From assembly GCF_030684675.1 (NCBI RefSeq), contig NZ_JAUXXZ010000050.1, positions 62,001 to 126,000 of the forward strand: a DNA stretch of 64,000 nucleotides, given 5' to 3'. A program made the position numbers and the translations under genes. The notes under the pieces are model-generated. The model was not told the DNA's origin. It saw nothing but the letters and a program-made list of their open reading frames with translations, and made no database searches. Numbering within the stretch: the stretch's first letter is position 1; every line of letters begins with the position of its first letter. Below are positions 5,430-25,363 of this stretch, piece after piece. Source of the DNA: Daejeonella sp. Its GTDB lineage: Bacteria > Bacteroidota > Bacteroidia > Sphingobacteriales > Sphingobacteriaceae.

Positions 5430-5733
5430 AAATAGATTACAGTTTTACTTGTTGTAGATTATAGATTAATAATTACAAATATTGTTTAAAATTCTTAATA
5501 TGATAATTAGCTAACTTTTAACGCCTAACTTTAAATCTAACCTATTTGCGCAAAGCTAAATATTCTTCTCTTTATATGAGACCTAATTTCGGGTATTTTT
5601 GTTATCGGTTGTAATCCCAATGGAGGCCTAAGAAGTTTTTACATTATATTGTCTAATACCGTGATTCAATAAGTTCCCTCATTTCATTCGGGATGACAGG
5701 TTTCACTCAATGCTTCATCTATCTCAATAATTC
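5430..5733. other. Gap between the exporter gene and gmd; AT-rich, with one dispersed-repeat fragment
   Basis: No credible reading frame on either strand. The portion near 5430-5600 is AT-rich and may hold the exporter's leader. Near 5668-5702 there is a fragment, ttcattcgggatgacagg, belonging to the GGATGACAGG-ended repeats found also at 10105-10130 and 45230-45258. Confidence 0.6.
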
Positions 5734-6870
5734 TTACTCAAAATAATTTAAGGTATTAAAGCCTCCAATTTTCAGATACTCATCTTTCTTCATCAGATGA
5801 AGGTCAGAAAGCACCATTTCTTTGACCAGGGCAGCAAGGTCATATTTCGGCTTCCAGCCAAGTTTGGTATTTGATTTTGTCGGATCACCAATCAATAAAT
5901 CTACTTCTGTTGGCCTGAAATACTTCGGATCCACTTTTACTACAGTAGTCCCCGGCTTTAAGCTTTCCGCTTTAAGCTTTAAGCTTTCTACCTTAGCCTC
6001 ATCAATATCAATAATAACACCTCTTTCCTGTTCATCTTTCCCACTAAACTCGACTTCAATTCCTAATTCAGCAAAACTCATTTTTACAAAATCACGAACC
6101 GTTGTGGTTACCCCCGTCGCAATTACAAAATCTTCTGCTTTATCCTGTTGCAAAATCAGCCACATGGCCTCCACATAATCTTTAGCATGCCCCCAGTCAC
6201 GCTGCGCTGACAGGTTACCCAGGTATAAACAGTTCTGCATACCTAATGCTATTTTAGCAGCTGCCATAGTAATTTTACGAGTCACAAAAGTTTCTCCCCT
6301 AACCGGGCTTTCATGATTGAATAATATTCCATTGCAAGCAAACAGATTGTAGGCTTCACGATAATTAACAGTAATCCAATAGGCATACATTTTCGCAACC
6401 GCGTAAGGAGAACGTGGATAAAATGGGGTCTTTTCATTTTGAGGCATTTCCTGCACCAAGCCATATAATTCGGAAGTAGAGGCCTGATATATCTTAGTCT
6501 TTTTTTCTAAACCAAGGATTCTTATAGCCTCAAGAATACGTAAGGTACCAAGACCATCCGCGTTTGCTGTATACTCTGGAGTTTCAAAACTCACCTGCAC
6601 ATGACTCATAGCAGCCAGGTTATATATCTCATCCGGTTGTGTTTCCTGAATGATACGAATTAGATTGGTTGAATCTGTTAGATCTCCATAGTGAAGCTTC
6701 AACCTTAAATTACTTTCATGAGGATCCTGGTACAAATGATCGATCCTATCAGTATTAATTAATGAACTTCTTCTCTTAATACCATGCACAAAATACCCCT
6801 TATTTAACAGGAATTCTGTCAAATAAGCTCCATCTTGACCGGTAATGCCGGTAATTAGTGCTGTCTTCAT
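5734..6870 (-). CDS. gmd: GDP-mannose 4,6-dehydratase
   Basis: 378 residues. N-terminal [11 protein letters not shown] (residues 7-17) binds NADP; STSELYG and YAVAK hold the Ser/Thr-Glu and Tyr-x-x-x-Lys of the active site; the C-terminal [12 protein letters not shown] and LGWKPKY segments are diagnostic of GMD. The enzyme makes GDP-4-keto-6-deoxymannose, precursor of GDP-fucose or GDP-rhamnose, in the cytoplasm. Residues of about 294-306 are a low-complexity insertion ([12 protein letters not shown]) just before the conserved [12 protein letters not shown] segment; it is encoded by a heptamer array at 5955-5988. The start at 6870 immediately precedes the conserved MKTALITG. A second heptamer array lies 5 bp upstream of the ATG. 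Confidence 0.93.
5955..5988 (+). repeat. Heptanucleotide array (GCTTTAA, 4.9 units, one variant) inside gmd coding sequence
   Basis: Units in order: GCTTTAA, GCTTTCC, GCTTTAA, GCTTTAA, GCTTTC. They encode the [11 protein letters not shown] insertion of GMD in the opposite strand. The unit length is not a multiple of three. Confidence 0.92.
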
Positions 6871-6875
6871 GGAAA

Positions 6876-6906
6876 GAGTATTGAGTATTGAGTATTGGGT
6901 ATTGAG
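6876..6906 (+). repeat. Heptanucleotide array (GAGTATT, 4.4 units) in the gmd 5' leader
   Basis: Units: GAGTATT three times, GGGTATT once, then GAG. It occupies -6 to -36 relative to the gmd start codon on the minus strand, where the ribosome would load. It uses the same heptamer as the array in the exporter gene. Confidence 0.93.
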
Positions 6907-7167
6907 ATACCAGGTAATAATCCGGAAAATCTTGTTTCAATTGATATTTTTACTTGATTCATAATTATACGAATTTAATTAAAATCAGATTAACAGACAT
7001 CCCTAAAACGGCCCCGCCCTATGAGTCACAATTTAGGCAATTACACTTATTTCCTGATTTTCAAATCTCCAAATTACCAAATCTTCAAATCGATCTGGGT
7101 ACGGCTCCGCCCTTTCAGTCACATTTTCATTTTGCGACATCTAATATAGTTTAACCCGAACTCAAAT
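6907..7167. other. Gap upstream of gmd with imperfect direct repeats
   Basis: No gene seen. It holds two imperfect copies of a 27-bp motif, acggcYccgccct followed by agtcaca, at 7008-7034 and 7101-7127. Between them, at about 7061-7092, is a tract with an 8-bp period (caaatctc-like units). It is probably non-coding repeat material. Confidence 0.6.
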
Positions 7168-7299
7168 AATATTTAAACCACATAGAAACATAGAATTGAT
7201 CTGTGTTTCTCCTCTCTAAAGACGCATAGAGTCTTGAAGCTCCGCCTCAATCTATGTGTACTTTAAACCATATATGAACAAACTATGTGGTTAAATATT
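7168..7299. repeat. Dispersed palindromic element A, copy 1
   Basis: About 117-132 bp bounded by perfect inverted termini AACCACATAG (7176-7185) and CTATGTGGTT (7283-7292), each extended outward by aatatt/AT-rich sequence. The reverse complement aligns along most of its length with the element at 22267-22387, sharing the termini, an internal gtttaaagta/ctttaaagta motif and ctatgtttctatgtggtt. There is no reading frame inside; it resembles a MITE or REP-like element. Confidence 0.85.
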
Positions 7300-7331
7300 A
7301 ACTGTCTTTATTTATGAAAACCAGGTACCTT

Positions 7332-7826
7332 TTAAGAAACCTGCAATTTCTCTACAATATTTTTTCTCAGATCAACTTTTACCTGTAAACCCAGATCTTC
7401 TAAAAGCAAAAGCGCATAATTCCCTTTACTCTCCAATACCTCTGCTTCTTTATCCATCAATGCCCCGGAACGTATTCTGATCCTATCACTCACATTCAGA
7501 TTCTCTGCTATAATAGTATCATGATCATATTGCATCAACCAACTTTTCAACAGATCCATTTCCTTCGACCTTATTATCGCTGGTTTCCCGCAGTGATAAA
7601 CGTAACGAACTATCCCAGGGACTGAAAAAACCGTATCTCTATCCTTATCCTCAAGCCTTACAAAGCAATAAGATCTGAACAAAGGCTCCTCCACCCATTT
7701 CCATCGGTCGCTCCAAAGTTTTTTTCTTCTTAAAAGCGGGCAATAAACTTCAATACCCGACAGTGCCAATTTATCTGCAACGGCCTTTTCATTGCGTGAT
7801 TTGGTATAGAGCACGTACCAATTCAT
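7332..7826 (-). CDS. UpxY-family (NusG-like) transcription antiterminator
   Basis: 164 residues. The N-terminal MNWYVLYTKSRNEKAVADKL is the NGN-domain start typical of NusG paralogues, followed by EVYCPLLRRKK and PLFRSYCFVRL; a KOW-like region follows around residues 112-145 (RIRSGALMDKEAEV). UpxY proteins of Bacteroidota prevent premature termination in the leader of the polysaccharide operon they head. Its place as second gene of this locus fits that role. It overlaps the upstream regulator by 4 bp (ATGA-type overlap at 7823-7826), indicating coupled translation. The gap of about 460 bp to gmd holds a palindromic element. Confidence 0.85.
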   Translation of the reverse strand: MNWYVLYTKSRNEKAVADKLALSGIEVYCPLLRRKKLWSDRWKWVEEPLFRSYCFVRLEDKDRDTVFSVPGIVRYVYHCGKPAIIRSKEMDLLKSWLMQYDHDTIIAENLNVSDRIRIRSGALMDKEAEVLESKGNYALLLLEDLGLQVKVDLRKNIVEKLQVS

Positions 7827-8359
7827 ACTAAATGATCAAATATTAAAACCATCTCTTTATTGTGCTTCTGCACATAAACCTCTGCATCTTCCTCTTCAAA
7901 AACCAAATAGCGTATTTTTCTGCCAAGGAGAGGTTCTGCCTTTTCTACCAGGTTACTCAGATAATTCCGGTCAATATTGTCACCAATAATCATCAGATCA
8001 ATGATATCTGAATCCAGTCCACGTGCTATCATACCTTCAAGATAAACGCGTTGTACGTTTCCCAATCGGTCGATAACCTTTTCGATTACTTCTTCTACAC
8101 CTATAAACTTTCTGATAATGCTATTTAGATCCTTGAACAAGGGATGAAGGGTATTTGCACGATATAGTTTCTTATTACCATCTGATTCAGCCAGCAATAG
8201 CCCGGCTTTCTCAAAACGATTAAGCTCCTGCCTTATACCATTGGTACTCTCGTTAAACTCAGCTTCAAGGCTTCTTAAATACCCCTGATTGTTGATGTTT
8301 AAAAAGAATTTAAGCAATAACTTAATTCTCGTTTTAGATGTTATCAGACTTTCGAGCAT
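7823..8359 (-). CDS. Winged-helix regulator with a degenerate nucleotidyltransferase-like domain
   Basis: 178 residues. Residues 1-70 resemble an ArsR-type winged helix (ESLITSKTRIKLLLKFFLN ... IRQELNRFEKAGLL). Residues 95-175 recall a minimal nucleotidyltransferase fold: VYLEGMIARGLDSDIIDLMIIGD. Active enzymes of that fold carry a Gly-Ser pair followed by an Asp-x-Asp; here the Ser is replaced (EGM) and the Asp pair reads D-I-I-D, so catalysis is doubtful and a sensory or binding role is more likely. As the first gene of the exopolysaccharide operon, coupled to upxY by a 4-bp overlap, it is probably a local regulator. The start at 8359 is supported by the MLESLITSKTR N-terminus. Confidence 0.65.
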   Translation of the reverse strand: MLESLITSKTRIKLLLKFFLNINNQGYLRSLEAEFNESTNGIRQELNRFEKAGLLLAESDGNKKLYRANTLHPLFKDLNSIIRKFIGVEEVIEKVIDRLGNVQRVYLEGMIARGLDSDIIDLMIIGDNIDRNYLSNLVEKAEPLLGRKIRYLVFEEEDAEVYVQKHNKEMVLIFDHLV

Positions 8360-9005
8360 AATATTGAGTATAATTAGTACTCATTATATAACTCAAAAGT
8401 AGAACATATTTTTAAAAAAGCAAGAAAAATTTGACAATTCGCTATCTGATATCAGTTATCTGAGAAATCCTACGTGTTAATTAATACCTTTTTCAAAATG
8501 TTTAATATTCTATGAAGAAAAGCACCTAAGTGGAATTATCCTTGCAATATCTTTAAACCCTCTCCGCCCAGGGCGGAGGGCCAAGATGATCCTGGAATCA
8601 ACGGCTCCGTAATAAGGGTGAGGCCCTAAAAATGCTTGAACCACTCCATCAATATTATACATTAGAATCTTCAAATAAAGCACCCAAGAAAAGGCAAATA
8701 AATCCTGCTTTAGCAATATTTAGTGCTCATGGTGATGAGATTCTTCGTCGCTACCCATTTTTAATAAATATCGAAAATCAGTTGGCTCCTCTGAATGACA
8801 GTCGGTACAAAATGCTCAATACTCAAATAGACAAATTTAATGTTTGTGACTGACGAAATCTACTTCCTAATCGCCTAAGTGATTTAAGTCCTTCTACCAT
8901 CGACAAATCGACAAATAAACCCGGAATTCAACTGGGACTAAAATTACAAACTGAAGCTCCCTACCCATTTTCAAATTTGCTCATTTTCAAATTTTCAAAT
9001 CTCCT
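8360..9005. other. Long gap between the polysaccharide operon and the XRE regulator gene
   Basis: AT-rich near 8380-8500, where the operon promoter should lie. There is a GC-rich palindrome at 8562-8578 (CTCCGCC-cag-GGCGGAG), followed by gtgaggccct-like sequence also seen near 14990. A partial copy of the CTCAATA heptamer motif lies at 8816-8827, and a repeated TTTTCAAATTT tract at about 8968-9001. Short open frames here (for example 8632-8853) show no recognisable protein features. Confidence 0.5.
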
Positions 9006-9603: not shown

Positions 9604-9933
9604 ATGGACTCTAAACCTAAAAGAGAAAATACTAATGAAACTGCCATTCGCAGTCTTCATTACTTCTGTACTGCCTATTCCTTTTGTTCCAGTAATGTAC
9701 AACTCAACCGTGCACTCAGCACCGTTATCTGTGGTAGCTATACAGATATGAATTATTCAGACAGGGCGTGCCTGTTTGATTACCTTTTGGCTCTGGAAGA
9801 TTTACTGCCTGCTTTGTATGAATTGCAGGAGCATTTGAACAGAACTGAAACGGATGAAGAGAATGCGGGTATTTACAAGGATGAGGTTTCTGCTAAGGAC
9901 ATGTATGCTTCGTTTAAGAGGCATCCGGAGTGA
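9604..9933 (+). CDS. Small protein of unknown function
   Basis: 109 residues from the Met at 9604; an upstream Met at 9550 would add 18 residues rich in Tyr/Phe that look like leader sequence, so the internal start is preferred. It is not recognised. It is acidic in the C-terminal half, with a helical segment LLALEDLLPALYELQEHLNRTETDEEN, and has three Cys residues in the first half. It is divergent from the XRE regulator gene, with a candidate operator between them, so it is probably that regulator's target. Its stop codon lies at the edge of a tract of GC-rich repeats. Confidence 0.5.
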   Translation: MDSKPKRENTNETAIRSLHYFCTAYSFCSSNVQLNRALSTVICGSYTDMNYSDRACLFDYLLALEDLLPALYELQEHLNRTETDEENAGIYKDEVSAKDMYASFKRHPE

Positions 9934-10344: not shown

Positions 10345-11649
10345 ATGAAAAAAACGATACAATTCATCGTCCTGGCCGCGCTTTGCTTTTTTTTAAGCAG
10401 CGCCGCACGGGCACAAACCACCGCCCTGAAGATCGGGGATCAGGTTCCGGATATCAGCATTAACAATATTATAAATTACAAAAGCAGTAGTGTAAAACTC
10501 TCCGATTTTAAGGGGAAGTTACTGATTTTGGATTTCTGGGCTACCTGGTGCGGGGCATGCCTCAATGCTATGCCTTTAACAGACAGTCTGCAGCAGGCTT
10601 TTGATGGAAAAATTCAATTTTTCCCTGTCACCTACCAGACTGAAAAGGAAGTGCGCCAGACTATTCAAAAAATAGAGCAAAGTAAAGGAATTCGAATTTT
10701 TACGGCCCTTGAAAATAAGGAACTCAGCCGATTGTTCCCCCATACTACACTTCCGCATTATGTATGGATAGGCCCGGATGGAACATTAAAAGCCATTACC
10801 GGAACCGAAGCGCTGAATGCCGAAAATATCCGCGCTTTGCTTTCTCAAAATGAAGTAATGCTGAGGGAGAAAAAAGATATCCGAATACCCTATAATACCA
10901 AAGAGCCTCTTTTTGTGAATAATAATGGAGGAGATGGGCTTAATATCCAGTACCGTACTGTTTTTAGCGGCTATGTGGAAGGCCTTCGCTCGGGGACAAA
11001 CAGTTATAAGGCGGATACTGGCAGTACTTTTCGCATGACTACCCTTAACCAGCCGCTGATCAACTTGTACAGGCTCGCTTACAGCGATCAGGGCTTCCTG
11101 CCCACCAACCGTATTGTTGTATCGGTAGCAGACAGTACCCTGATCAAATCCAGAAAGACAGGAGCTGAATACCTCGACTGGCTGAAAGATCGGGGATATT
11201 GCTATGAGCTGACCGTTCCGCTTTCTATGGAGAAGCAGGTATTTGAGATCATGCAGGCAGATATGCGAAGGCTTTTCCCACAGTATTCGGCCAATATGAA
11301 GGAACAGGATAGCCCCTGCCTGGCTTTGGTCAGAACATCCCTTACTGATAAATTAAAAAGTAAGGGTGGCAGGTCATATACAGAATTCAATGCTTTCGGC
11401 TGTACTCTTCAGAATTTTCCTCTTCAGCGCCTGATCGATCAACTGAACGTGCGCTATATGCAGGGAATACCTACCCCTGTGGTGGATCAAACCGGCTATA
11501 CCGAATGGGTAGACCTGCAGATCAATGCACCTCTCAATTCCATTGTTGAAATGAACAGGGAACTGGCCAGATATGACCTGCAACTGGTGGAGAAAATAAT
11601 TCCTGTAGAGAAACTGGTAATCAGGGATCAAAGGCAGATAGGGTTTTGA
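10345..11649 (+). CDS. Exported thioredoxin-like (TlpA-type) protein with a C-terminal DUF3738-like domain
   Basis: 434 residues. A Sec signal peptide is present (cleavage near ARAQ, residue 24). Residues 28-170 form a TlpA/AhpC-type thioredoxin fold with the redox motif WCGAC (Cys69, Cys72). Residues of about 195-430 are unlike thioredoxin; the segment PVVDQTGYTEWVDLQI recalls the conserved end of DUF3738 domains. It is presumably a periplasmic thiol-disulfide protein. It is the first gene of an apparent operon with susC and susD, 92 bp apart from susC. The role of the C-terminal domain is unknown. The block from here to 16388 looks more GC-rich by eye than the flanking genes, consistent with an accessory origin. 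Confidence 0.75.
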   Translation: MKKTIQFIVLAALCFFLSSAARAQTTALKIGDQVPDISINNIINYKSSSVKLSDFKGKLLILDFWATWCGACLNAMPLTDSLQQAFDGKIQFFPVTYQTEKEVRQTIQKIEQSKGIRIFTALENKELSRLFPHTTLPHYVWIGPDGTLKAITGTEALNAENIRALLSQNEVMLREKKDIRIPYNTKEPLFVNNNGGDGLNIQYRTVFSGYVEGLRSGTNSYKADTGSTFRMTTLNQPLINLYRLAYSDQGFLPTNRIVVSVADSTLIKSRKTGAEYLDWLKDRGYCYELTVPLSMEKQVFEIMQADMRRLFPQYSANMKEQDSPCLALVRTSLTDKLKSKGGRSYTEFNAFGCTLQNFPLQRLIDQLNVRYMQGIPTPVVDQTGYTEWVDLQINAPLNSIVEMNRELARYDLQLVEKIIPVEKLVIRDQRQIGF

Positions 11650-11666
11650 ACATTGTCTGGGGACAC

Positions 11667-11700
11667 AAGGCTGACAGGGTTCAAAAACCCTGTCAGCCTT
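11667..11700. repeat. Perfect palindrome AAGGCTGACAGGGTT, copy 1
   Basis: 15-bp arms with a CAAA loop, between the thioredoxin-like gene and susC. The same sequence with a slightly altered loop is found at 49795-49827. It is likely a dispersed hairpin element; it may act as an attenuator here. A second small stem, CCCGCA/TGCGGG followed by six A, lies at 11719-11738. Confidence 0.8.
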
Positions 11701-11741
11701 ATACCTAATAAAAAACATCCCGCACCTGCGGGAAAAAACAC

Positions 11742-14700
11742 ATGAACATGAAAAAAATTATAGTTTATAGTATTCTCATGCTGATTACCGCACTAAGCTG
11801 TGCGGCTCAGATCCGGATCAATGGCAGGGTGCTCACTGCCGATGGAGAGCCATTAATAGGAGCAACCGTAAAAATTAAAGATCATGCAACAGCGGTTCTC
11901 GCCGGCGATGAAGGTAAGTTCAGCATAGCAGTCAACAGCTCTGAACTGAGTTTGATTATTTCCTATATCGGATATAGAACCGCTGAAAGGAAACTCATAC
12001 TGCCCTTAACAGAAGAACTGATCATCAGGCTGGATAGAGAATCGGGGAGCCTGGCTGAAGTACTGGTATCAACCGGCTACCAGACTCTGGCCCGAGAACG
12101 TGCTTCAGGTTCTTTTGTTCAGGTGGATAAGCAGCAGCTCAACCGCAGGGTAAGTACAGATGTTTTAAGCAGGCTGGAAGATATGGTGCCGGGATTGACG
12201 CTGAACAGGAAAGGAGCCAGTCAGATCAGTATCAGGGGGCAGAGTACGCTTTATTCGAATGCTGAACCTCTCATTGTGATCGATAATTTTCCTTATGAAG
12301 GGGATCTGGCAAATATTAACCCGAATGATGTAGAAAGCATCACTATTCTTAAAGATGCTGCAGCCGCCTCGATCTGGGGCGCCCGTGCAGGAAATGGCGT
12401 TATTGTGATCACTACCAGCAAAGGCAGGTTTCAGCAGCCAACAAAACTGTCCTTCAATTCCAATATAACGGCGGGCAATAAACCCGATCTGTTCTATCAG
12501 CCAAGAATCTCATCGGCCGATTTTATTGGGATTGAGCAGATGCTTTTTAACAAAGGATATTACCTATCAGCAGAATCTTCTCTGAATAAAGCACCATTAA
12601 CACCCGTGGTAGATCTGCTCATCGCCAAACGCGATGGACTGATCCCAGCTGCTGAGGCTGATTCCAGGATAGAGGCTTTGAAGAATATAGATGTCCGCAG
12701 GGATATTGATCGCTACATATACCGTAATTCCCTCAACCAGCAACATTCATTAAACCTGAGTGGTGGAACGGAAAACCAGACCTTTTTTGTATCAGCCGGT
12801 TATGACCGAAACCTGCAAAGTCTGGTGGCAAACAGTTACGACAGACTTTCGCTCAATGGCTCCAATACCTACCGTTTTTTAAAACAGAAGCTTCAGCTGA
12901 CGACCGGAATTTACTATATCCAAAGTAAACAGTCTTTGAACAATTCCGGACCGGGTAGTATGATGATGGATATCGGTAGTCCCATGTACCCCTATGCCAG
13001 GCTGGCCGATGATCAGGGAAATCCATTGTCTGTGATCAGGGATTATAGAGCAGGCTATCTTCAAAGTGCAGCAGTGCAGGTTCCTGAACTGCTGGACTGG
13101 ACCTACAATCCGATAAGGGAGATCGAACTGGGGGATAACAAGAACAGCGGTGTAGATTATCGCATTAACGCAAACCTTCAGTACAAACTTCCCGCCGGCT
13201 TCGATGCTTCACTCCTCTACCAATATGGAAGAACCACTGATAACAGCCGGAACCTTCAGAGTATCGACACTTATTATACCCGGAACCTGATCAATTCCCT
13301 GACATCGGCAGGCAGTCCGGGAGCCCTGATTCGACCTGTTCCTGTCGGAGGTATTCTGGATTTGAATACCATGAATGCGCAAAGCCATAATCTCAGGGCT
13401 CAGCTGAACTATAACCGGATATGGAAAGAGCAGCACCGTATCAGCGCCTTAGCCGGTGCTGAAGTTCAGGACAGAAGTATGATCAGCAATTCATCCCGTC
13501 TGTACGGCTATGACGATCTTCATGCCAGTTCGCTGCCTGTTGATCATATTACACCCTTTACCACGTTATTCAATCCGACCCAGACTTCCACCATACCAGC
13601 CGCCGGACAAATGAGCGAACTGACAGACCGCTACCTGTCATGGTATATGAACGGGGCCTATACCTTTAAGAACAGGTACACTCTTACAGCCAGCGGACGT
13701 TTTGATAAATCGAACCTTTTTGGGGTACGCACTAATCAAAAAGGAGTACCATTATGGTCCGCCGGCTTAGCTTATAACATCAGTGATGAAAGCTTTTACA
13801 AGTTTTCATATTTGCCCTATCTTAAGCTCAGACTCAGCTATGGTTATAACGGGAATGTGAACCGTTCTTTGTCGGCTTATACAACCGCCCGATACGTCTC
13901 CGCAGCTTTTCTTACCTCGATTCCTTATGCATCCGTCAGTAATCCTCCTAATCCGGAATTGCGCTGGGAACGTATCAATATGGTCAATGCCGGTATTGAT
14001 TTTTCTTCGGCAGGAAATGTTCTTAGCGGTAGTATTGATTTTTTCAGGAAGAAAGGCTTTGACCTGATCGGCGAAACACCCTTTCCGCCTTCTTCAGGCA
14101 TTACCCGTTTCCGGGGCAATACGGCCAGCATCCGTGGGAGCGGTATAGATATTGCTTTGAACAGCAAGAATATTGACGGTAAATTCAAATGGTACAGCCA
14201 TGCTGTATTCGGGTTAGCCCGTGATGTGGTGACCGATTATCGCTTCACTTCTTCTGCTATAAGTTATGCTCAGGGTTCAGACGGACTTCCCTTTCCTGGA
14301 AACCCCATTTACGGCCTGTACAGTTATCGCTGGGGTGGATTATCCACTTCCGGCAATCCACAGGGATATATAGGTGGAGTTTTAAGCACAGATTATGCAC
14401 AGATCATTTCAAAAACTGTCGCGCAGGAACTGGTATTTCATGGAGCATCACGGCCTGTTTATTCAGGTGCCTTAAGAAATACCCTGGAATGGAAAGGCTT
14501 TAGCTTATCCGCTAATATCAGTTACCGGCTGGGCTATTATTTCAGGAGGCCATCGGTCAATTATACTTCTTTGCTCCGGGGGATCTACAGTCATGGTGAT
14601 TATGCTTTTCGATGGCAGAAATCCGGAGATGAACAATTTACTTCCATACCTTCAATCCCGGCAGCTGTGAACAGCAATCGCGATCAGCTCTACCTGTATT

Positions 14701-14933
14701 CTGAGGCATTGGTTGAAAAAGGCGATCATATCCGCTTGCAGGATATCAATTTAAGCTATGAGCTTACCAGGTCAAAATTTCCGAAACTACCCTTTTCCAA
14801 TGCAAGGCTGTATATCTATGCCAATAATCTGGGCTTGATGTGGCAAGCCAATAAGTCCGGATTAGACCCGGATTATCAATCCGGCCCGCCACCACGAACC
14901 ATAGCCGCAGGCCTAATAGTAGATTTTAAATAA
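11742..14933 (+). CDS. SusC/RagA-family TonB-dependent outer-membrane transporter
   Basis: 1063 residues. It has a signal peptide, a carboxypeptidase-regulatory-like domain at about 24-100 (INGRVLTADGEPLIGATVKIK), a plug domain at about 125-230 ending in the hallmark AAAASIWGARAGNGVIVITT, and then a long beta-barrel. There is no N-terminal STN domain, and no sigma/anti-sigma pair lies nearby. With the adjacent SusD-like lipoprotein it should import a substrate too large for porins, energised by TonB. The substrate is unknown: no glycoside hydrolase lies in this block, whereas redox proteins and a LanB-type enzyme do. Confidence 0.93.
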   Translation: MNMKKIIVYSILMLITALSCAAQIRINGRVLTADGEPLIGATVKIKDHATAVLAGDEGKFSIAVNSSELSLIISYIGYRTAERKLILPLTEELIIRLDRESGSLAEVLVSTGYQTLARERASGSFVQVDKQQLNRRVSTDVLSRLEDMVPGLTLNRKGASQISIRGQSTLYSNAEPLIVIDNFPYEGDLANINPNDVESITILKDAAAASIWGARAGNGVIVITTSKGRFQQPTKLSFNSNITAGNKPDLFYQPRISSADFIGIEQMLFNKGYYLSAESSLNKAPLTPVVDLLIAKRDGLIPAAEADSRIEALKNIDVRRDIDRYIYRNSLNQQHSLNLSGGTENQTFFVSAGYDRNLQSLVANSYDRLSLNGSNTYRFLKQKLQLTTGIYYIQSKQSLNNSGPGSMMMDIGSPMYPYARLADDQGNPLSVIRDYRAGYLQSAAVQVPELLDWTYNPIREIELGDNKNSGVDYRINANLQYKLPAGFDASLLYQYGRTTDNSRNLQSIDTYYTRNLINSLTSAGSPGALIRPVPVGGILDLNTMNAQSHNLRAQLNYNRIWKEQHRISALAGAEVQDRSMISNSSRLYGYDDLHASSLPVDHITPFTTLFNPTQTSTIPAAGQMSELTDRYLSWYMNGAYTFKNRYTLTASGRFDKSNLFGVRTNQKGVPLWSAGLAYNISDESFYKFSYLPYLKLRLSYGYNGNVNRSLSAYTTARYVSAAFLTSIPYASVSNPPNPELRWERINMVNAGIDFSSAGNVLSGSIDFFRKKGFDLIGETPFPPSSGITRFRGNTASIRGSGIDIALNSKNIDGKFKWYSHAVFGLARDVVTDYRFTSSAISYAQGSDGLPFPGNPIYGLYSYRWGGLSTSGNPQGYIGGVLSTDYAQIISKTVAQELVFHGASRPVYSGALRNTLEWKGFSLSANISYRLGYYFRRPSVNYTSLLRGIYSHGDYAFRWQKSGDEQFTSIPSIPAAVNSNRDQLYLYSEALVEKGDHIRLQDINLSYELTRSKFPKLPFSNARLYIYANNLGLMWQANKSGLDPDYQSGPPPRTIAAGLIVDFK

Positions 14934-15011
14934 ATAAATTTTAAATGTACCTCCATCCATCCCCCCTCTCCCTTGGATAGGGGCCGGGGGTGAGGCCCAA
15001 AACATAAAACC

Positions 15012-16388
15012 ATGAACAATCTAAATCTATCAAAACTTCTGCTGCTGTTCCTAAGCTTTATCCTGATTTCCTGTGATAAAGAATACTTTGAAAAGATTAA
15101 TGATAAATCCCTGCTGGTACCCTCAACCCTCGCAGATTTTCAGGCCCTGCTGGATGATAACAGAAATGTAATGAACCTGAGTCCCTGGATAGGGGAGATC
15201 AGTTCTGATAATTTCTATGCGGCTGATGCAGGATATCTGGCTTGGAATACCGAGCTGGAACGGTCGGCCTATACCTGGTCCACCAACCCGGATGCAACAG
15301 GAAACGTGTCTGACTGGAATACTGCTTACCGGCAGATATTTAATACCAACATCGTACTTGATGGGCTGCAGGAAGTAAAAGGAAGGGCTACGGAAACCGA
15401 GATCAGGAACATTCGTGGCAGCGCCTTGTTCTACCGTGGCTATGCCTTATACAATCTGTCACAGATTTTCGCTGCTCCTTATGATGTGGCTACCGCAAAC
15501 AGCGACCCCGGTATTCCCGTACGTTTAAGTGCGGATGTTAATCTTCGGCCCGGGAGGGGTACACTTGCTGATACCTATCAGCAAATATTGAAAGATATAA
15601 AGGAAGCAGCCGAATTACTTCCCCAGCAAGTGGCTTATAAAACCAGGCCATCTCAGGCAGCCGCCTTTGCACTGCTGGCCAGGATTACACTCAGTATGCG
15701 TAACTATGAAGAGGCCTTTAAATATGCTGAACAATGCCTTGCAGTGCGTAATACCCTGATCGATTATAATACCCTGAACTTAAGTGCTACCAGGGCATTT
15801 CCGGTACTCCTGCCAAACGGAAATGCTGAGGTGATTTACTATTCAATTATGTCTCCGCTTTCTTTCTTTTCATCCTCTCTAACCTATGTGGATAGCCTGC
15901 TGTACAAGAGCTATACGGCAAATGATCTGCGTAAAAATGCATTCTTCTTAAACAGAGGAGCTAATAAATTTTCTTTCAGGGGTAGTTATACCGGCAGAAC
16001 TGAATTGTTCTCAGGAATGGCAACAGATGAGCTGTATCTGATCCGTGCAGAATGCCTTGCAAGAAAAGGTAACACACAGGCTGCATTGGTTGATCTCAAT
16101 ACGCTTCTTTCCAAACGATGGAAGAGCGGCACCTATGTCCCCATGACGGCTTCATCCGCAGATAATGCGTTAAATCTGGTGCTGACTGAACGAAGAAAGG
16201 AGCTGTTGATCAGGGGATTGAGATGGAGCGACCTGAGAAGATTGAATACTGACTCCCGCTTTGCAGTGACACTACAACGGAAAATAAATAATCAGACTTA
16301 TACCCTGCCAGCCCAGGACAAGCGGTATGTATTACTGATCCCTGATCAGGAAGTTGCAGCTACCGGCATTGCCCAGAATCCGAGGTAA
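15012..16388 (+). CDS. SusD/RagB-family nutrient-binding lipoprotein
   Basis: 458 residues, somewhat shorter than typical SusD proteins. A lipoprotein signal ends at the lipobox ILISC (Cys21). SusD features include the TPR-like segment RGSALFYRGYALYNLSQIFA (about 137-156), a later ARITLSMRNYEEAFKYAEQCL, and the C-terminal DELYLIRAECLARKGN ... ALNLVLTERRKELLIRGLRWSDLRRL. It acts as the lid of the SusC transporter encoded just upstream. It is separated from susC by 78 bp containing a GC-rich cccctctccc/ggggccgggggtgagg repeat, and is followed by a strong terminator. Confidence 0.92.
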   Translation: MNNLNLSKLLLLFLSFILISCDKEYFEKINDKSLLVPSTLADFQALLDDNRNVMNLSPWIGEISSDNFYAADAGYLAWNTELERSAYTWSTNPDATGNVSDWNTAYRQIFNTNIVLDGLQEVKGRATETEIRNIRGSALFYRGYALYNLSQIFAAPYDVATANSDPGIPVRLSADVNLRPGRGTLADTYQQILKDIKEAAELLPQQVAYKTRPSQAAAFALLARITLSMRNYEEAFKYAEQCLAVRNTLIDYNTLNLSATRAFPVLLPNGNAEVIYYSIMSPLSFFSSSLTYVDSLLYKSYTANDLRKNAFFLNRGANKFSFRGSYTGRTELFSGMATDELYLIRAECLARKGNTQAALVDLNTLLSKRWKSGTYVPMTASSADNALNLVLTERRKELLIRGLRWSDLRRLNTDSRFAVTLQRKINNQTYTLPAQDKRYVLLIPDQEVAATGIAQNPR

Positions 16389-16400
16389 TCCTTGAAAACA

Positions 16401-16436
16401 AAAAAGAAACTCCGCCAGACAACGGAGTTTCTTTTT
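16401..16436. terminator. Bidirectional rho-independent terminator between susD and the DUF6520-like gene
   Basis: 14-bp arms (AAAAAGAAACTCCG / CGGAGTTTCTTTTT) around an 8-nt loop, 12 bp after the susD stop. The A- and T-rich ends make it functional in both directions for the convergent genes. Confidence 0.9.
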
Positions 16437-16456
16437 TCTAAGGTAAGATTGGGAAC

Positions 16457-16723
16457 TTATTGCGGTAAATACACGCCGTTGTCAGAAGTAATCACCATTC
16501 CGATGGTACTCTGATTTGGGTCCTGAGGAAAGGTTGCCTTACAAACTTCGCTTGAAGGTTCACAGGCATACTCTGCTTCAGTTGCAGGAGTTACAAGGAT
16601 CCAGGAACCATCGCTTAAGCGGGCGTACTCCTGATCTAAATTCCTGCTGGCTACTTCCTGTGAACCCAGTGCGAATATTAGACCAACTGCTGCGGCTATT
16701 AGGCCAAAATTTACTTTTTTCAT
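16457..16723 (-). CDS. Small exported DUF6520-like protein
   Basis: 88 residues from the Met at 16723; an upstream Met at 16819 would add 32 polar residues ahead of the signal peptide and is less likely. It has a signal peptide (MKKVNFGLIAAAVGLIFALG), then a short mature region with two Cys (YACEPSSEVCKAT) and a polar C-terminus. Size and layout resemble the DUF6520 family of Bacteroidota, whose function is unknown. It lies 127 bp downstream of the MauE-like gene in the same direction. The two Cys and the MauE-like neighbour suggest a disulfide or redox-related role (inference). Confidence 0.6.
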   Translation of the reverse strand: MKKVNFGLIAAAVGLIFALGSQEVASRNLDQEYARLSDGSWILVTPATEAEYACEPSSEVCKATFPQDPNQSTIGMVITSDNGVYLPQ

Positions 16724-16850
16724 GTTTAATTGTTTTTTAATCCCGCCTGTGCAGGAAATATAATTGCCTACTCTGTTATTCAGGTTTTCGGCTTCTCCAT
16801 TTTGATCGCTTTTTACCATTGATCATATAAATGAAATCAATGGTCAATAT

Positions 16851-17285
16851 TCAGAAGTCCTTTCCCATATTCCTCCTTTCCTTAAGAGAATGAAACGTTG
16901 CATAGAGCGCCAAAGCAAGGAAGCATAGATTGAATACAAGATGTGTCTCCCAGCTCATGTTTTTCAATACGCCACCGCAGCTACAGGGAATGCGATTAAA
17001 AACAGAATTGATTACCAATGAAATGTAAATGCTGAATGAAATCAGGAGCAGGGAGGATAGAAACAACCCGTATAGCTTTGTCCGGGAATAAAGTAGCAGG
17101 ATAGCTGTAAACAGTTCAGCCATAGGAACAAGCCAAACCAGGATCTTTTCAAGCCATGGAGCCAGTGGCTGACTAAGCATTTCCCCACGACTTCTATCAA
17201 AATCAATCAGCTTAATGACCGCTGCATATACCCAAAGAAAAATAAGGAGACCTGAAATAGTTGAAACAAACTGAGACCTGTTCAT
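16851..17285 (-). CDS. MauE/DoxX-family membrane protein (redox-associated)
   Basis: 144 residues with four hydrophobic segments (about 8-26, 46-66, 72-95, 114-131). A short loop before the last helix contains CSCGG (Cys101, Cys103), the cysteine motif typical of Bacteroidota MauE-like proteins. MauE proteins are needed for maturation of disulfide-rich periplasmic proteins such as the methylamine dehydrogenase light chain. It is encoded between a small HTH gene and the DUF6520-like gene, all on the minus strand. Confidence 0.75.
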   Translation of the reverse strand: MNRSQFVSTISGLLIFLWVYAAVIKLIDFDRSRGEMLSQPLAPWLEKILVWLVPMAELFTAILLLYSRTKLYGLFLSSLLLISFSIYISLVINSVFNRIPCSCGGVLKNMSWETHLVFNLCFLALALYATFHSLKERRNMGKDF

Positions 17286-17341
17286 CTTATTGAAATTTAA
17301 TACTGTAAAGAAAAAACACTAAAGCATTAAAAAATCAGCCT

Positions 17342-17563
17342 TTACCCTTTCAAGTCATTTTTCTTATTCAGTACGTATTTCTGCAATGAACGCGAATAGT
17401 GGATTTTATGCCCATCTTCCCTAAGTTCGTTTAACCAAATGGTAATGGTTCCTTCCGTGCAATCGAATAGCCGTGCAGCCTGTCTTCTGGAAATAAATCT
17501 GCCCTTTTCAAGCATTTCCAGTATTCTGAGCAAGTTTTGCTGATGGGAACGATAGGAATTCAT
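17342..17563 (-). CDS. Small helix-turn-helix protein
   Basis: 73 residues. A single HTH spans about residues 8-55: LLRILEMLEKGRFISRRQAARLFDCTEGTITIWLNELREDG, similar to HTH_11/DeoR-type N-terminal domains, then a short basic tail. There is no effector domain. It is divergent from the lanB-like gene with 211 bp between the two starts, so it may regulate both directions. Confidence 0.7.
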   Translation of the reverse strand: MNSYRSHQQNLLRILEMLEKGRFISRRQAARLFDCTEGTITIWLNELREDGHKIHYSRSLQKYVLNKKNDLKG

Positions 17564-17667
17564 GCCATTTATTCTGTTTCATTTTTGGAGCCAGTTATAT
17601 AAGTCTGGAGCACGATCTGCCGGGCTTTTCCGACCTCTTTTTTTGATAATTTCCTAATTTATTTTAA

Positions 17668-17688
17668 GGTGTCAGGTTTATTTACACC
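17668..17688. promoter_or_regulatory. Short inverted repeat in the HTH-lanB divergent region
   Basis: GGTGT and ACACC arms with 11 bp between, in an AT-rich stretch between the divergent genes. It is a weak candidate for an operator. Confidence 0.3.
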
Positions 17689-17774
17689 AACATGGGATTC
17701 TGCTTGATGAACTCGCTGTAATAACAAGGAATCCATACATCCCGGGAAATGGGGCTCGCTATTTTAGGAAGCAG

Positions 17775-20576
17775 ATGAAGCTCCATAACCAATTGATCCT
17801 CCGGATACCACGATATCCAGTGAATAATGCAAGTCAATCACTGGATAAGGTACTTCTTGATCCGGTCTTCAGGGATGCGCTTTATCTGGCCAGTGACTCG
17901 ATAACAGATGAATTAAACCGTAATGGTTTTCAGCCAGGCCACTGTACTGAAAAAATGAAGAACTCCCTGATGAAATATCATAAACGTATTTGCTACAGGC
18001 CAACACCTTTCGGAGCATTTGCAGGGCTGACTGTTCTTCCATGGCAAGAAAGTAAAGATCCCGGGATTATAATCACCAATGAATCATTTCAAACACTGGT
18101 ATTGAAGAAGGAGCTTCATCAGCAAACCGACAGATCTTCAACAAAAAAGTACTATCGCGTAAATCCATTTTTATACCCATATGGGACTGATTTCAGAATT
18201 CTAAGAAAGGGTAAAAAGAGTGATCAAAGCACTTTCACTATTTCAGAAATCTTTAGTTCCGATCCTATAACAAACCTTGCGTCCGGTAAACAGATAATCA
18301 GTCAAGCCTCTCTTTTAGAGTTGCTTAATAACAGTGGTATTGACAAAGATGAACTGGATTCGTACATAAAAGAATTGCTTGAATTGCAAATTATATTACC
18401 TTATCAACACATAAGCAGAGAATTTCCAAATCCTCTAACTCCGAAACATAAGGAATATCCGGGATCCTCCTATGACTCTTATAGCCGCGTTTCGCTTGAC
18501 GGTTCCTTGCCGGAAGGCCTAAAGGAACAGCTTGATGAGGCACTATATTGCCTTGAAGAGTTGAGTACTCAATATGAGCTTCAGACTTTAACGAATTTTA
18601 AAATACAGTTTGAAAAACTCTTCGAAAGGAAAGAAGTGTCCCTACTTCAAGCGCTTGATCCGGAGCTCGGTATCGATTATGAGAGCCTGGATAATAATCA
18701 TATTCAAGAAACAGGAATGAAAATACCAGAACGTATTTCCTGGTCGCCTATACATAAACTATTACTGGGTAAATGGACTGCACAATCCGGCAATGAAATT
18801 CCTGAAATTGAAATTCTGGAAAAGGATCTTAGGGAATTGAATAATCCGCAAAGAAATTATCCTCCCGGTTATTCAGTTATATTCTCACTTTCTGTTGACC
18901 ACTTGCATATTAAGGCTGCCGGTGGTGTAAGCAGTTTGAATATGATCGGGCGCTTTACTGCTCTTGATCCGGATATTCAAAAACTTGGTAGAAAGTTGGC
19001 TGAAATGGAGATGGCCGTTAATCCGGATGTTTTGTTTGCAGAGATCTCTCATCTTGACAGCAGCCAATTGGCGAGTGTTAATACGCGGGCTATGTTATAT
19101 GACTACCAGATTCCTCTTTTTGAAGATCCGAAAGTAGCCGATGACTTTGTGATCGGACTGAACGATCTATATATTTCATTAGTAGATAATTGCCTGCAGT
19201 TATGGTCTTCAAGGCTCAAAATGCGTATCATCCCCCGTTTTAGCTGTGCATACAATTATCCGAACAGCCATTTACCCATCTTTAGGTTTTTGTGTGATTT
19301 ACAATATGAAGGCATTTACCCGAACCTGAATTTCAGTATGGTTAATCTGTTTCCCGGATTACCGGCATATCCGAGGCTTACATATAAGGGTATAATACTT
19401 GAATCTGCCTCATGGCATCTGAATGCAAAACAACTTTGGGCATTAAAGAAATTAGATCCGTCTAGCCAATATACTGAATTCAGTTCCATTGCAATTCAAA
19501 TTGGCCTGCCAGAGGAAATTTGCTATGAGGTTCATGATCATTTACTTCATATAAAGATATCATGCGCGAAGGATGTGAACTTACTACTAAAAACAATTCC
19601 GGAAACGGGAATAATTGTTTTTAGGGAGTATGATAACGGACAGGAATCTTTGGTTAAAGACAACCAGGGAAATTCCTATACACACGAATGTATTGCCTTT
19701 CTGACAAACAGGGAAAAGTCCTATTCCTCTTATTCCTGGCCAATAAAGCCCCTGATTAACGAAAAGGACAAACTCTTTCCTTTCGACGAATGGCTCTATT
19801 TTAAGCTCTATATGCATCCCTTCGGATATAAGGATCTTTTGCTGAATTACATCCAGCCTTTTATTTCCAAAAATACAAGTAATGGGAATATCTCCACCTG
19901 GTTTTTCATCAGTTATCTGGATGAAGAATCCCATTTAAGGCTTCGCCTGAAACAAATGCCGGGAAGGGAGGCAAAGCTTTTAAAATCTTATAAAAAATTG
20001 GAAAATAGCCTCAGGCATTTACCCAACCTGAAAAAACTTGAATTGTCAACCTACATCAGAGAACAGGAAAGATACAGTTCCATAGGTATTGAACTGGCAG
20101 AGGACCTGTTTGGTTTAAGCAGTGAAATAGTTTTATCTACGCTTAACCTGCCTTTTATGGATGGTTCGAGTAGGGAAAAGCTGTTTCAGGCCATAAGGCA
20201 CTTATGGATAATTTTTAATGGTTTAAAGTATGATTTATCGATGGTGGTAGAGCTTTCAATGAACTTGACCAGGCATTTAACTAAAAACCGAACAATTGAA
20301 TTCGATTTAGAATTCAGGGAACATCAAAGAGACTTAAGGTCTTTCCTGACTGATAATAGTGAAGTGGGAGAGATTGAGAAGCAATATGTGAACAAAATAG
20401 ATATGGTAACACAAACGCTAAGCATAAATGAACAATTGCAGGTAATAACTGACCTCAATCACATGCACCTTAACCGGCATTATTTACATGACCAGCCATT
20501 TCATGAAGTTAAAACGTATTATTTTCTTGCCAAAATTTCCCGATCGATACTTAAATACCGGGGGTTTGACATATAA
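17775..20576 (+). CDS. LanB-type lantibiotic dehydratase, full length with fused C-terminal elimination domain
   Basis: 933 residues. The N-terminal glutamylation domain begins ILRIPRYPVN and carries YHKRICYRPTPFGAFAG (residues 68-84), the signature arginines and TPFG of class I dehydratases. The C-terminal SpaB_C/thiopeptide-type domain starts around residue 668 (DEWLYFKLYM) and includes WFFISYLDEESHLRLRLK and STYIREQERYSS, where the family more often has RYGG. LanB enzymes use glutamyl-tRNA to dehydrate Ser/Thr in a precursor peptide. No LanC cyclase, LanT transporter or precursor was found within the window. It stands alone on the plus strand, beside a redox/SusCD block. Confidence 0.88.
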   Translation: MKLHNQLILRIPRYPVNNASQSLDKVLLDPVFRDALYLASDSITDELNRNGFQPGHCTEKMKNSLMKYHKRICYRPTPFGAFAGLTVLPWQESKDPGIIITNESFQTLVLKKELHQQTDRSSTKKYYRVNPFLYPYGTDFRILRKGKKSDQSTFTISEIFSSDPITNLASGKQIISQASLLELLNNSGIDKDELDSYIKELLELQIILPYQHISREFPNPLTPKHKEYPGSSYDSYSRVSLDGSLPEGLKEQLDEALYCLEELSTQYELQTLTNFKIQFEKLFERKEVSLLQALDPELGIDYESLDNNHIQETGMKIPERISWSPIHKLLLGKWTAQSGNEIPEIEILEKDLRELNNPQRNYPPGYSVIFSLSVDHLHIKAAGGVSSLNMIGRFTALDPDIQKLGRKLAEMEMAVNPDVLFAEISHLDSSQLASVNTRAMLYDYQIPLFEDPKVADDFVIGLNDLYISLVDNCLQLWSSRLKMRIIPRFSCAYNYPNSHLPIFRFLCDLQYEGIYPNLNFSMVNLFPGLPAYPRLTYKGIILESASWHLNAKQLWALKKLDPSSQYTEFSSIAIQIGLPEEICYEVHDHLLHIKISCAKDVNLLLKTIPETGIIVFREYDNGQESLVKDNQGNSYTHECIAFLTNREKSYSSYSWPIKPLINEKDKLFPFDEWLYFKLYMHPFGYKDLLLNYIQPFISKNTSNGNISTWFFISYLDEESHLRLRLKQMPGREAKLLKSYKKLENSLRHLPNLKKLELSTYIREQERYSSIGIELAEDLFGLSSEIVLSTLNLPFMDGSSREKLFQAIRHLWIIFNGLKYDLSMVVELSMNLTRHLTKNRTIEFDLEFREHQRDLRSFLTDNSEVGEIEKQYVNKIDMVTQTLSINEQLQVITDLNHMHLNRHYLHDQPFHEVKTYYFLAKISRSILKYRGFDI

Positions 20577-23756: not shown

Positions 23757-25259
23757 GTGAAAAAAATACTCTCAATACTACTACTGCTTCCCCTGGTCGT
23801 TTCAGCCCAGAACAAAGGATTTGAGGAAAAAGCTGCAAAGATTGATACTTATGTAAATGCTTTGCTTTCCGACTGGAATATTCCGGGTCTTGCTTTGATT
23901 ATTGTCCGCAAAGATCAGGTGTTATATGCCAAAGGATATGGCTTCAGGGATCTGGAAAACAAAATTCCGGCCACAGAAACAACCCTATTTCCAATTGCCT
24001 CAAACACCAAGCTTTTTACAGCAACACTGGCAACACAGCTTGCTTATGAAGGCAAATTAAGTCTGGATGCACCTGTAAAGCAGTATTTACCTGAAGTTAA
24101 TTTTTATAACCCTGAATTAAATTTCAAAGTAAGCATGCGGGATTTGCTAAGTCACCGAACCGGCCTTCCGTCTTACGATGGAATCTGGTTGAATGCATCA
24201 TTTAAAAGAAAAGAACTCTTAAGCAAAATATCCTTTATGAAGCCAAGCCTTGGTTTCAGGGAGGGGTATATTTATAATAATAACATGTATACTTTGGCCG
24301 GACTAGCAATTGAAGCGGTAAGCGGCAAAAGCTGGGAAGAGAACGTGCAGGAACGCATTTTTAAGCCTCTGGAAATGAATTCAAGTGGATTTACCGGGGT
24401 AGGATCACGACCGGATAATCATTCCCTGTCCTATTTTGAAGCAGAGGGTACAGGTAAACTCACAGCCCGTACATTTCTTGCTCAATCAGAATTACTTGCA
24501 CCGGCCGGTAATATCTATTCCAGTATGGTAGATATGAGCAAATGGCTCATTCTGCAGGTTAATGGTGGAAAATTTAAAGGAAAGCAGGTTATTGCAGCAT
24601 CTGCAGTTGAGGAGACCAAGATCCCAAATGCTATTTCCGACAAAAGAGGCAGATATGATGAACTATCCAATGCCATTTATTCGATGGGGCGTTCTCTCCA
24701 AAGCTATAAAGGCACCAAAATGATCAGTCATACAGGATCAATTGATGGATTCTATTCTAATTTAAGCTATCTGCCAAAAGATAGTATCGCGTTATTTATT
24801 GTTCACAATGCCGTATCAGCAGGTTCCCTTCGTTCGGTGATGAATCTGCCACTTATCGACATCCTGCAGAACAGGGAAATCACAGACTGGAGTGCGAGAT
24901 ATAGAAAAGACTATCTGGAGGCTCAGGAAAGAAACAAAAAGACTGTGGATGAAATCAATGCTTCACAGGTTAAGAACACCCTTCCATCTCATCTGGCATT
25001 GGCCTACACAGGCAGGTTCAGTCACCCGGTATATGGTGAGATTCTTATCGGACTAAAAAACAATGATCTGCAGCTTCAGTACAGAAGTCTAAATGCTACC
25101 CTGCATCACTGGCATTACGATCAGTTTATTACGATGGATGATGGAAGAGGTTTTCCGGATATGCGGATCAGTTTTCTGACAAATGATAAGGGAGAAATCG
25201 ACTGCATCAGTACCCGCCCTTTCGGAGATCCGCTTACTGAATTTGTTCGGGTGAAATAA
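23757..25259 (+). CDS. Class-C beta-lactamase-fold serine hydrolase with C-terminal DUF3471-like domain
   Basis: 500 residues, GTG start at 23757, 21 bp after the previous gene. It has a signal peptide (LLPLVVSAQ). The active-site SxxK is SNTK (Ser82-Lys85), the Tyr motif is in YIYNNNMYTLAG, and the third motif is HTGSIDGF (HxG in place of KTG). The C-terminal 110 residues (LALAYTGRFSHPVYGEILIGLKNN) are an added lipocalin-like DUF3471 domain. Family members include D-aminopeptidases and esterases; the HxG motif and neighbours favour a D-peptidase over a resistance beta-lactamase. Confidence 0.8.
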   Translation: MKKILSILLLLPLVVSAQNKGFEEKAAKIDTYVNALLSDWNIPGLALIIVRKDQVLYAKGYGFRDLENKIPATETTLFPIASNTKLFTATLATQLAYEGKLSLDAPVKQYLPEVNFYNPELNFKVSMRDLLSHRTGLPSYDGIWLNASFKRKELLSKISFMKPSLGFREGYIYNNNMYTLAGLAIEAVSGKSWEENVQERIFKPLEMNSSGFTGVGSRPDNHSLSYFEAEGTGKLTARTFLAQSELLAPAGNIYSSMVDMSKWLILQVNGGKFKGKQVIAASAVEETKIPNAISDKRGRYDELSNAIYSMGRSLQSYKGTKMISHTGSIDGFYSNLSYLPKDSIALFIVHNAVSAGSLRSVMNLPLIDILQNREITDWSARYRKDYLEAQERNKKTVDEINASQVKNTLPSHLALAYTGRFSHPVYGEILIGLKNNDLQLQYRSLNATLHHWHYDQFITMDDGRGFPDMRISFLTNDKGEIDCISTRPFGDPLTEFVRVK

Positions 25260-25363
25260 GAATTGAAAATCCTATCGAAGTTTTGTATTCTGAATTCTAT
25301 TTTCATAATTTACCATTCATTATCCAACATTAAACCGCTAAAAATTAACCCATAATTAATCAC

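Follow-up and report, generated by a model that had tools for sequence, protein, structure and literature searches.

We conclude that the LanB-type dehydratase encoded in a 64,000-nucleotide stretch of a Daejeonella sp. genome (the window; positions 62001 to 126000 of contig C13) appears to belong to an undescribed peptide system that lacks LanC, is linked to a two-component system, and frequently comes with an outer-membrane importer of its own. In this genome (G000; 4.25 Mb in 84 contigs, 98.97% complete), the window carries one half of a split cluster, with LanB and the importer; the other half, with a short threonine-rich precursor gene beside a sensor kinase gene, lies on contig C21. A preliminary description of the window had reported a LanB next to TlpA, SusC, SusD, DUF6520, and MauE genes and had proposed that the precursor lies elsewhere, that the cluster is decayed, or that LanB modifies a substrate linked to the importer. 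The precursor is indeed elsewhere, and because it sits beside a kinase orthologue on another contig, the cluster is split rather than decayed. The interpretation as a whole held in part: the importer link, the intact LanB, and the distant precursor stand, whereas decay does not, and the importer link is confined to a minority of loci.

In the first relatives inspected, a short open reading frame (ORF) of about 37 to 58 residues adjoins a histidine kinase/LytTR regulator pair near LanB. Its product combines a lysine-rich N-terminal half with a threonine- and serine-rich tail, often containing DPT and TTTxT; at one such locus (L003), the kinase belongs to His_kinase (PF06580) and the regulator to Response_reg plus LytTR. 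A model of 20 of these peptides, 19 from surveyed loci and none from G000, predicted exactly one precursor in the held-out genome (C21:12303-12434, E 1.7e-11), within a 47-residue ORF on the minus strand (C21:12291-12434). Independently of the precursor search, the L003 kinase led to an orthologue at C21:12510-13601 (66% identical, E 3.5e-159) in a sensor histidine kinase gene on the plus strand (C21:12507-13604), followed by a LytTR regulator that is 75% identical. The precursor lies 12 kb into a 174-kb contig, and LanB well inside a 211-kb contig. The G000 peptide, MKTLKVTNTLLKKENCFTYGQIRPQKRPIDDPTVIITTTVTHIVPRR, has its sole cysteine at residue 16 of 47 and ends in the cysteine-free tail DDPTVIITTTVTH. 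Among the 20 genomes of the genus, the model matches six at E<=1.7e-11 and otherwise nothing below E 0.28, and all six carry LanB. Nonsynonymous and synonymous divergence (dN and dS) between the G000 and G119 precursors is 0.15 and 0.79, with 17 of the 31 differences at third positions; for L057 and L058, the values are 0.07 and 1.01.

The wider survey covered 301 genomes of the family, of which 150 contain a LanB relative. From the best-ranked 150 LanB places among the matches listed, we took 102 loci (the window, L003, 20 first-look picks, and the 80 best-ranked of the remainder), a nonrandom sample that leaves the other 48 (20 + 28) outside the census; 20 of 40 intended regions, lying 100 kb off on the same contigs, served as controls. 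The family models of the census derive from five to nine surveyed loci each, and training loci were subtracted for the precursor alone. A kinase and LytTR regulator lie near LanB in 98 of 102 loci, compared to 1 of 20 controls. The precursor model finds 118 ORFs in 77 of the 102 loci and none in the controls (58 of 83 loci after removal of the 19 training loci). A model-free composition rule, written after the peptides had been seen, selects 70 ORFs in the 93 kb located 5' of kinases; outside these stretches, it picks out 9 in 1,957 kb, and the 396 kb of controls contain 4. It adds candidates in 10 loci missed by the model, so that model or rule accounts for 87 of 102; the 20-row model also misses one hand-picked peptide, that of L055. 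Threonine and serine make up 32% of the tails, and the last 24 residues are free of cysteine in 109 of the 118 peptides. At E<=0.01, the precursor occurs in 88 of the 301 genomes, every one of which (88/88) has a LanB relative, and a class-wide sample of 345 genomes, at least 13 of them from the family, yielded five precursor matches at E<=1e-4, all from the family. None of 20 precursor peptides scanned matches Pfam or NCBIfam at E<=0.1. The threonine-rich precursor is a genuine gene family.

The two halves of the G000 cluster share a bipartite promoter site of 16 bases, ATCANNCA-N10-TTGGTGTAAA, which has two exact matches in the 4.25-Mb genome. One (C13:79681-79708; window 17681-17708, minus strand) lies between the winged-helix/MauE genes and LanB, and the other (C21:12488-12515) lies in the precursor/kinase promoter. 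This pattern was drawn from the G000 sites themselves, and the fair test is a held-out matrix. Built from G119 and G042 alone, that matrix ranks the window site first, at 33.1 bits with the next at 14.4, and places the precursor site at the top of the first 20 kb of C21, at 21.3 bits with the next at 18.5; five shuffles of the 94 kb scanned peak at 12.0 to 17.2 bits. A loose form of the site occurs seven times in 262 kb (12 sequences), at precursor/kinase promoters in four genomes and at LanB/MauE in three, with G021 showing it on the precursor side alone. Across the family, the site core (TTRNTGTAA-like) precedes 18 of 118 precursors and 19 of 98 kinases, against a background of 4.6%; it precedes 1 of 24 MauE, 0 of 29 TlpA, and 0 of 37 SusC genes. 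The third-best genome match, with one mismatch on C58, is located where a long ORF resembling a translational GTPase has its 5' end, and it was set aside. Within the group of G000, G119, and G042, these sites suggest that the precursor and LanB/MauE genes form one regulon, presumably controlled by the kinase/LytTR pair.

The importer block in the window comprises a TlpA/ResA-type exported thioredoxin (10345-11649, plus strand; AhpC-TSA 40.5 bits, cutoff 26; CxxC in WCGAC; an approximately 250-residue C-terminal extension without a Pfam match), a TonB-dependent outer-membrane transporter of the SusC type, from a subfamily linked to LanB (11742-14933, plus; TIGR04056 516.8 bits, cutoff 368.25), and a SusD-type surface lipoprotein (15012-16388, plus; SusD-like_3 129.2 bits, cutoff 27, with SusD_RagB also above its cutoff). 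At the level of sequence, SusC and SusD both exceed the curated cutoffs of the importer families. On the minus strand follow a small DUF6520-like exported protein with one C-x6-C pair, CEPSSEVC (16457-16723), and a MauE-type membrane protein with PCSCGG (16851-17285; Pfam MauE 106.6 bits, cutoff 27). With LanB, these make six open genes, as the preliminary description had it, although the DUF6520 assignment is weak (PF20130 20.5 bits, below the cutoff of 25.4). Relatives linked to LanB or to the module fall on either side of that cutoff (L043 29.4 and L168 27.1 above; L039 19.3 and L209 17.9 below), and the DUF6520-like proteins of L003, L210, and L213 give no PF20130 match. A C-x6-C or C-x7-C pair is present in 27 of 27 DUF6520-model matches at LanB loci, the window included. 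Translation of the window protein more likely starts at ATG 16723, which gives 88 residues. The idea that this small cysteine-containing protein is a LanB substrate was dropped on account of its signal-like N terminus, as read from the sequence.

The two redox proteins of that description are TlpA and MauE; it missed two genes of the block. The first gene of the importer block encodes a protein of approximately 109 residues (9604-9933, plus, in a frame open from GTG 9550) with no Pfam or NCBIfam match; a five-row model that includes the window protein finds it in 14 loci, always 5' of TlpA on the same strand. Between MauE and LanB lies a gene for a small winged-helix DNA-binding protein (17342-17563, minus; HTH_39 above cutoff), with relatives at five other LanB loci, directly 5' of MauE in two of them (L003 and L039). 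The Omp85-like gene 3' of LanB (20968) is absent among the recurrent LanB neighbors.

SusC, SusD, and TlpA occur together within about 10 kb of LanB in 24 of 102 loci (one of which, L054, rests on a weak 26-bit TlpA match) and in none of the 20 controls; MauE is near LanB in 26 loci and DUF6520 in 27, again with no control. The co-occurrence suspected earlier is therefore recurrent. Taken singly, SusC of any kind is found in 36 loci and 4 controls, SusD in 34 and 1, and TlpA in 26 and 2. Loci with the block typically start with the small protein, TlpA, SusC, and SusD genes, all on one strand; DUF6520 and MauE follow on the other strand and LanB comes next, after which come the LytTR regulator and kinase on the opposite strand and finally the precursor; exceptions include L123 and L129, with the block on the far side, and L172 and L174. 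On a FastTree phylogeny of LanB (102 rows, the broken L058 gene entered as its longer piece), the SusC-SusD label needs at least six changes, compared to a mean of about 22 in shuffles, and is thus clustered yet present in separate clades, one of which, L054, depends on the weak TlpA match. The window SusC is 47 to 50% identical to LanB-linked SusCs of L003, L043, L045, and L046. In the first locus set, it scores 681 to 1070 bits against close LanB-linked SusCs and 189 to 209 bits or less against unrelated SusCs, and its best other match in G000 reaches 110 bits, over residues 3 to 242 only. Because the full block is missing from 78 of the 102 loci and kinase and LytTR are present in nearly all, SusC-SusD counts as an optional addition, and the core partner of LanB is the two-component system.

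Alternatively, SusC-SusD, TlpA, MauE, and DUF6520 might form an ordinary nutrient-uptake locus coinherited with LanB, in which case the system would consist of LanB, precursor, and two-component pair only. G000 is rich in SusC-like genes (49 match pieces), MauE occurs in 199 of the 301 genomes, with no listed LanB within 12 kb for 121 of its 150 best matches, and most LanB loci lack the complete block. We nevertheless regard this view as unlikely, given the recurrent gene order, the multiple label changes on the LanB tree, the empty controls, the distinct SusC subfamily, and the site common to MauE/LanB and the precursor. Precursors remote from LanB provide a further argument. Among the 150 precursor places listed, 53 have no listed LanB within 15 kb, and 11 of these 53 lie 7.6 to 8.5 kb from MauE. 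All four such loci that were inspected carry kinase, LytTR, TlpA, SusC, SusD, DUF6520, and MauE but no LanB in the stretch (three have a short type of TlpA, and the L212 SusC spans two frames), and each of the four genomes has its LanB elsewhere. The module therefore follows the peptide even when LanB lies in trans and, with the window also considered, the importer block travels either with precursor and sensor but without LanB or with LanB but without the precursor.

One observation bears on the wider use of this module. At L213 (G287:C1:5853500-5862500, positions 2604-8926), a class III-like synthetase of 862 residues (RamC_N, Pkinase, and LANC_like) directly adjoins MauE, a DUF6520-like protein, a TlpA-like protein, and SusD, and a MauE match adjoins a LANC_like match in G296, G161, G227, and G254. 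The MauE-DUF6520-SusD module may thus serve another dehydratase class too. Separately, a family of approximately 330- to 390-residue proteins occurs at 30 of 102 LanB loci and at L213 but at none of the 20 controls; it is present at 18 of the 24 SusCD-type loci and directly 3' of the precursor on the same strand in 16 cases (e.g., L160 5566-6726, L045 4309-5328, L046 5060-6055, and L048 17987-18997). Two members scanned gave no Pfam match, and none was seen beside the G000 precursor.

By analogy with methanobactin, which is imported by TonB receptors, the modified peptide might instead act extracellularly by binding a metal or cofactor, with SusC-SusD reimporting the loaded form. A TonB-dependent transporter and redox proteins beside a peptide-modifying enzyme would suit such a role. 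The tails are nearly free of cysteine, with no obvious ligand set by eye, no exporter was recognized near the loci, and the full importer block is found in just 24 of them; we judge a metallophore-like function somewhat less probable still than the nutrient-locus view.

A standard lanthipeptide pathway finds even less support. No match to PF05147 (LanC) exists in G000, at its 98.97% completeness. In the family, LANC_like (E<=0.001) occurs in 71 of 301 genomes, and among the matches listed, it lies within 12 kb of 7 of the 150 LanB places; a listed precursor accompanies 59 of these places, and no place combines the two. The leader motifs FxLD and LxLxKx5L are each absent from all 118 precursor ORFs, and neither is in the G000 peptide. 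A canonical lanthipeptide cluster is rejected on these grounds and on the largely cysteine-free tails. Such a cluster in relatives, which the preliminary description had named as grounds for abandoning its proposal, did not emerge either; relatives have precursor, kinase, and regulator. It could be supposed that LanC and a cysteine-containing precursor are encoded elsewhere, the more so as the LanB is a typical full-length enzyme and ringed class I lanthipeptides are reported from Pedobacter lusitanus of the same family. With no LANC_like match in the genome and with tails and leaders as described, this is very improbable. The class I features thus comprise the LanB domains, with LanC, core cysteines, and a leader motif lacking, and we rate the system, from its genes, as a LanB-dependent ribosomally synthesized and posttranslationally modified peptide (RiPP) pathway that departs from class I lanthipeptides in these three defining respects.

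The enzyme itself (17775-20576, plus) combines a glutamylation domain with a fused elimination domain (Lant_dehydr_N 219.5 bits, cutoff 28; Lant_dehydr_C 132.4 bits, cutoff 24.4). A profile of 19 family LanBs aligns with chain residues 24 to 994 of the 1006 in NisB (4wd9; E 1.7e-66) and matches 9g04 at E 6.1e-93. NisB R83, R87, T89, R784, R786, and R826 stand opposite window R71, R75, T77, R722, R724, and R766, residues that we take to be catalytic; all six, and the histidine of the HxHxNR motif (window H896), are invariant or at least 90% conserved in the 19 LanBs. In the elimination domain, the arginine pair of HLRLR and the HxHxNR residues are invariant, and the arginine of ERY is at least 90% conserved. 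The window LanB is probably active: its open frame and conserved sites led us to reject decay of the gene, and they agree with the earlier statements that the enzyme retains its signature arginines and elimination domain and does not look dead. A structure predicted from five sequences had a mean predicted local distance difference test score of 41.9 and was not used further. In the nearest named relative found, Daejeonella sp. JGW-45 (Sphingobacteriaceae), LanB is 60% identical. One relative, G098, has a LanB with a single in-frame TAG stop (G098:C58:2985-5099; L058 2142-5174), and its locus retains kinase, regulator, and precursor. LanB relatives with other chemistry exist, such as the PEARL enzymes, which add amino acids tRNA dependently; such chemistry is nonetheless highly improbable for an enzyme with the fused elimination domain and the conserved residues just listed.

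Taken together, these features make it very probable that LanB, precursor, sensor, and module parts constitute one functional system, and likely that LanB dehydrates the threonine-rich precursor. The enzyme would use glutamyl-tRNA to dehydrate several threonines and serines of the tail. Because there is no LanC and the tail has no cysteine, the product would be a linear peptide with dehydrobutyrine and dehydroalanine (Dhb/Dha) and no lanthionine rings; we hold the absence of rings to be fairly likely. The kinase/LytTR pair would control expression of the precursor and of LanB/MauE, probably in response to the mature peptide, and a signaling role for the peptide is plausible but somewhat short of an even chance. 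Where present, SusC-SusD would move the peptide or a coacting compound across the outer membrane, most likely as uptake; that the peptide itself is the imported substrate is a more tentative proposal still. TlpA, MauE, and the two-cysteine DUF6520 protein, judging by their families, may carry out thiol chemistry outside the cytoplasm. We thus moderately favor, over the alternatives above, a split RiPP pathway with LanB as its only modifying enzyme, a linear Dhb/Dha peptide under two-component control, and its own SusCD-TlpA-MauE-DUF6520 module in many loci. A far more speculative extension, to which we give little credence, is a linear dehydropeptide pheromone, sensed through LytTR and taken up by a private SusC-SusD pair, whose Michael acceptors join the DUF6520 cysteine pair, kept reduced by TlpA/MauE, in a thioether between molecules.

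Several observations weigh against this interpretation. Most LanB loci (78 of 102) are without the full SusCD block. MauE is widespread (199 of 301 genomes), and just 29 of its 150 best matches have a listed LanB within 12 kb. Fifteen of the 102 loci, the window among them, have no precursor by model or rule. The two genus genomes with LanB but without a precursor, G056 and G067, are the two that carry LANC_like, and some LanBs thus fall outside the system. No exporter or leader protease was recognized in neighbor families present at six or more of the 102 loci, several of these families being unannotated and genes in trans not searched; the exit of the peptide from the cell is therefore unexplained. 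As for the promoter site, allowing up to two mismatches gives 8 places in the genome, compared to 4 for a reversed control, and an unrelated place on C21 (the 18.5-bit match) also exceeds the shuffles. The site is found at both places in three genus genomes only (G000, G119, and G042), and the same pattern is absent at four other scanned LanB loci (L040, L042, L057, and L058). Across the family, LanB genes show no enrichment of the core in front of them (7 of 106, against a background of 4.6%), and a family-wide test for a promoter element shared by precursor and LanB reached p<=0.05 at 4 of 77 loci, which is the level of chance.

Other genes near the precursors and LanBs deserve mention. Close to the precursor, L080 (G000:C21; 11855-12013, CRGCSGGWDLTDIIPE) and L039 (4330-4539, CRKCMEGWDITDPIP) each have a very small lipoprotein-like ORF with paired cysteines (C-x2-C). 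Multiple, mutually similar precursor copies with Thr/Ser tails occur in tandem near the kinase in L146, L098, L184, L178, and L186 (genus g14). At L051 (G194; 1132-2168), four tandem ORFs of 65 to 67 residues, of which the three fully read have Gly-Gly and several tail cysteines, resemble Gly-Gly-type precursors and differ from the threonine-rich peptide. A Gln_deamidase_2 protein and a 263-residue protein of unassigned family lie between LanB and the LytTR regulator at L039 (G042; 6705-8512). Within the window, two adjacent serine-hydrolase genes of beta-lactamase-like appearance, by reading of the sequence, occupy 23757-26635.

Among known systems, nisin is similar in that NisB aligns over nearly its full length, with the catalytic residues kept, and in that a two-component system lies at the precursor gene; nisin autoinduction runs via NisRK. 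Here, however, the regulator is of the LytTR type, the kinase is of the His_kinase type, no NisC-like protein is encoded in G000, and transporter, protease, and immunity genes were not seen at the loci, a genome-wide search not having been made. The SusC and SusD proteins pass the family cutoffs of SusCD/RagAB importers but stand apart by their linkage to a RiPP precursor, LanB, and MauE/DUF6520. In PMC3091789, class I clusters of Bacteroidetes (Pedobacter heparinus and Chitinophaga) have both LanB and LanC, and a two-component regulator gene lies close to one of the Chitinophaga clusters. These share with our system a LanB and a short precursor, but they were found via LanC, whereas here G000 has no LanC, the tails have few cysteines, and the LxLxKx5L leader is absent. 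The leader survey of PMC7268733, anchored on LanC, reports leaders of the LxLxKx5L type, in many cases combined with Gly-Gly sites and a C39 protease, and excludes cysteine-free peptides from the lanthipeptides; PMC10352776 records no LanB in Bacteroidales. MauE appears in three candidate RiPP families of Streptomyces in the decRiPPter study (PMC7794033), which concerns another phylum and, in the portion available, makes no mention of LanB, SusCD, or DUF6520. The literature searched, with partial coverage that left Caetano 2020 and Bothwell 2021 outside the comparison, held no account of a LanB system with a threonine-rich peptide and nothing on DUF6520.

Mining based on LanC, as in PMC7268733, misses systems of this kind, even though half of the family genomes surveyed have a LanB relative and 88 of those encode the peptide. 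The precursor, enzyme, sensor, and candidate receptor now form one testable set, and DUF6520 gains a context, as does a SusCD subfamily of unassigned substrate. Should the product prove to be a linear dehydropeptide, it would represent a kind of compound that LanB enzymes are not generally known to produce unaided.

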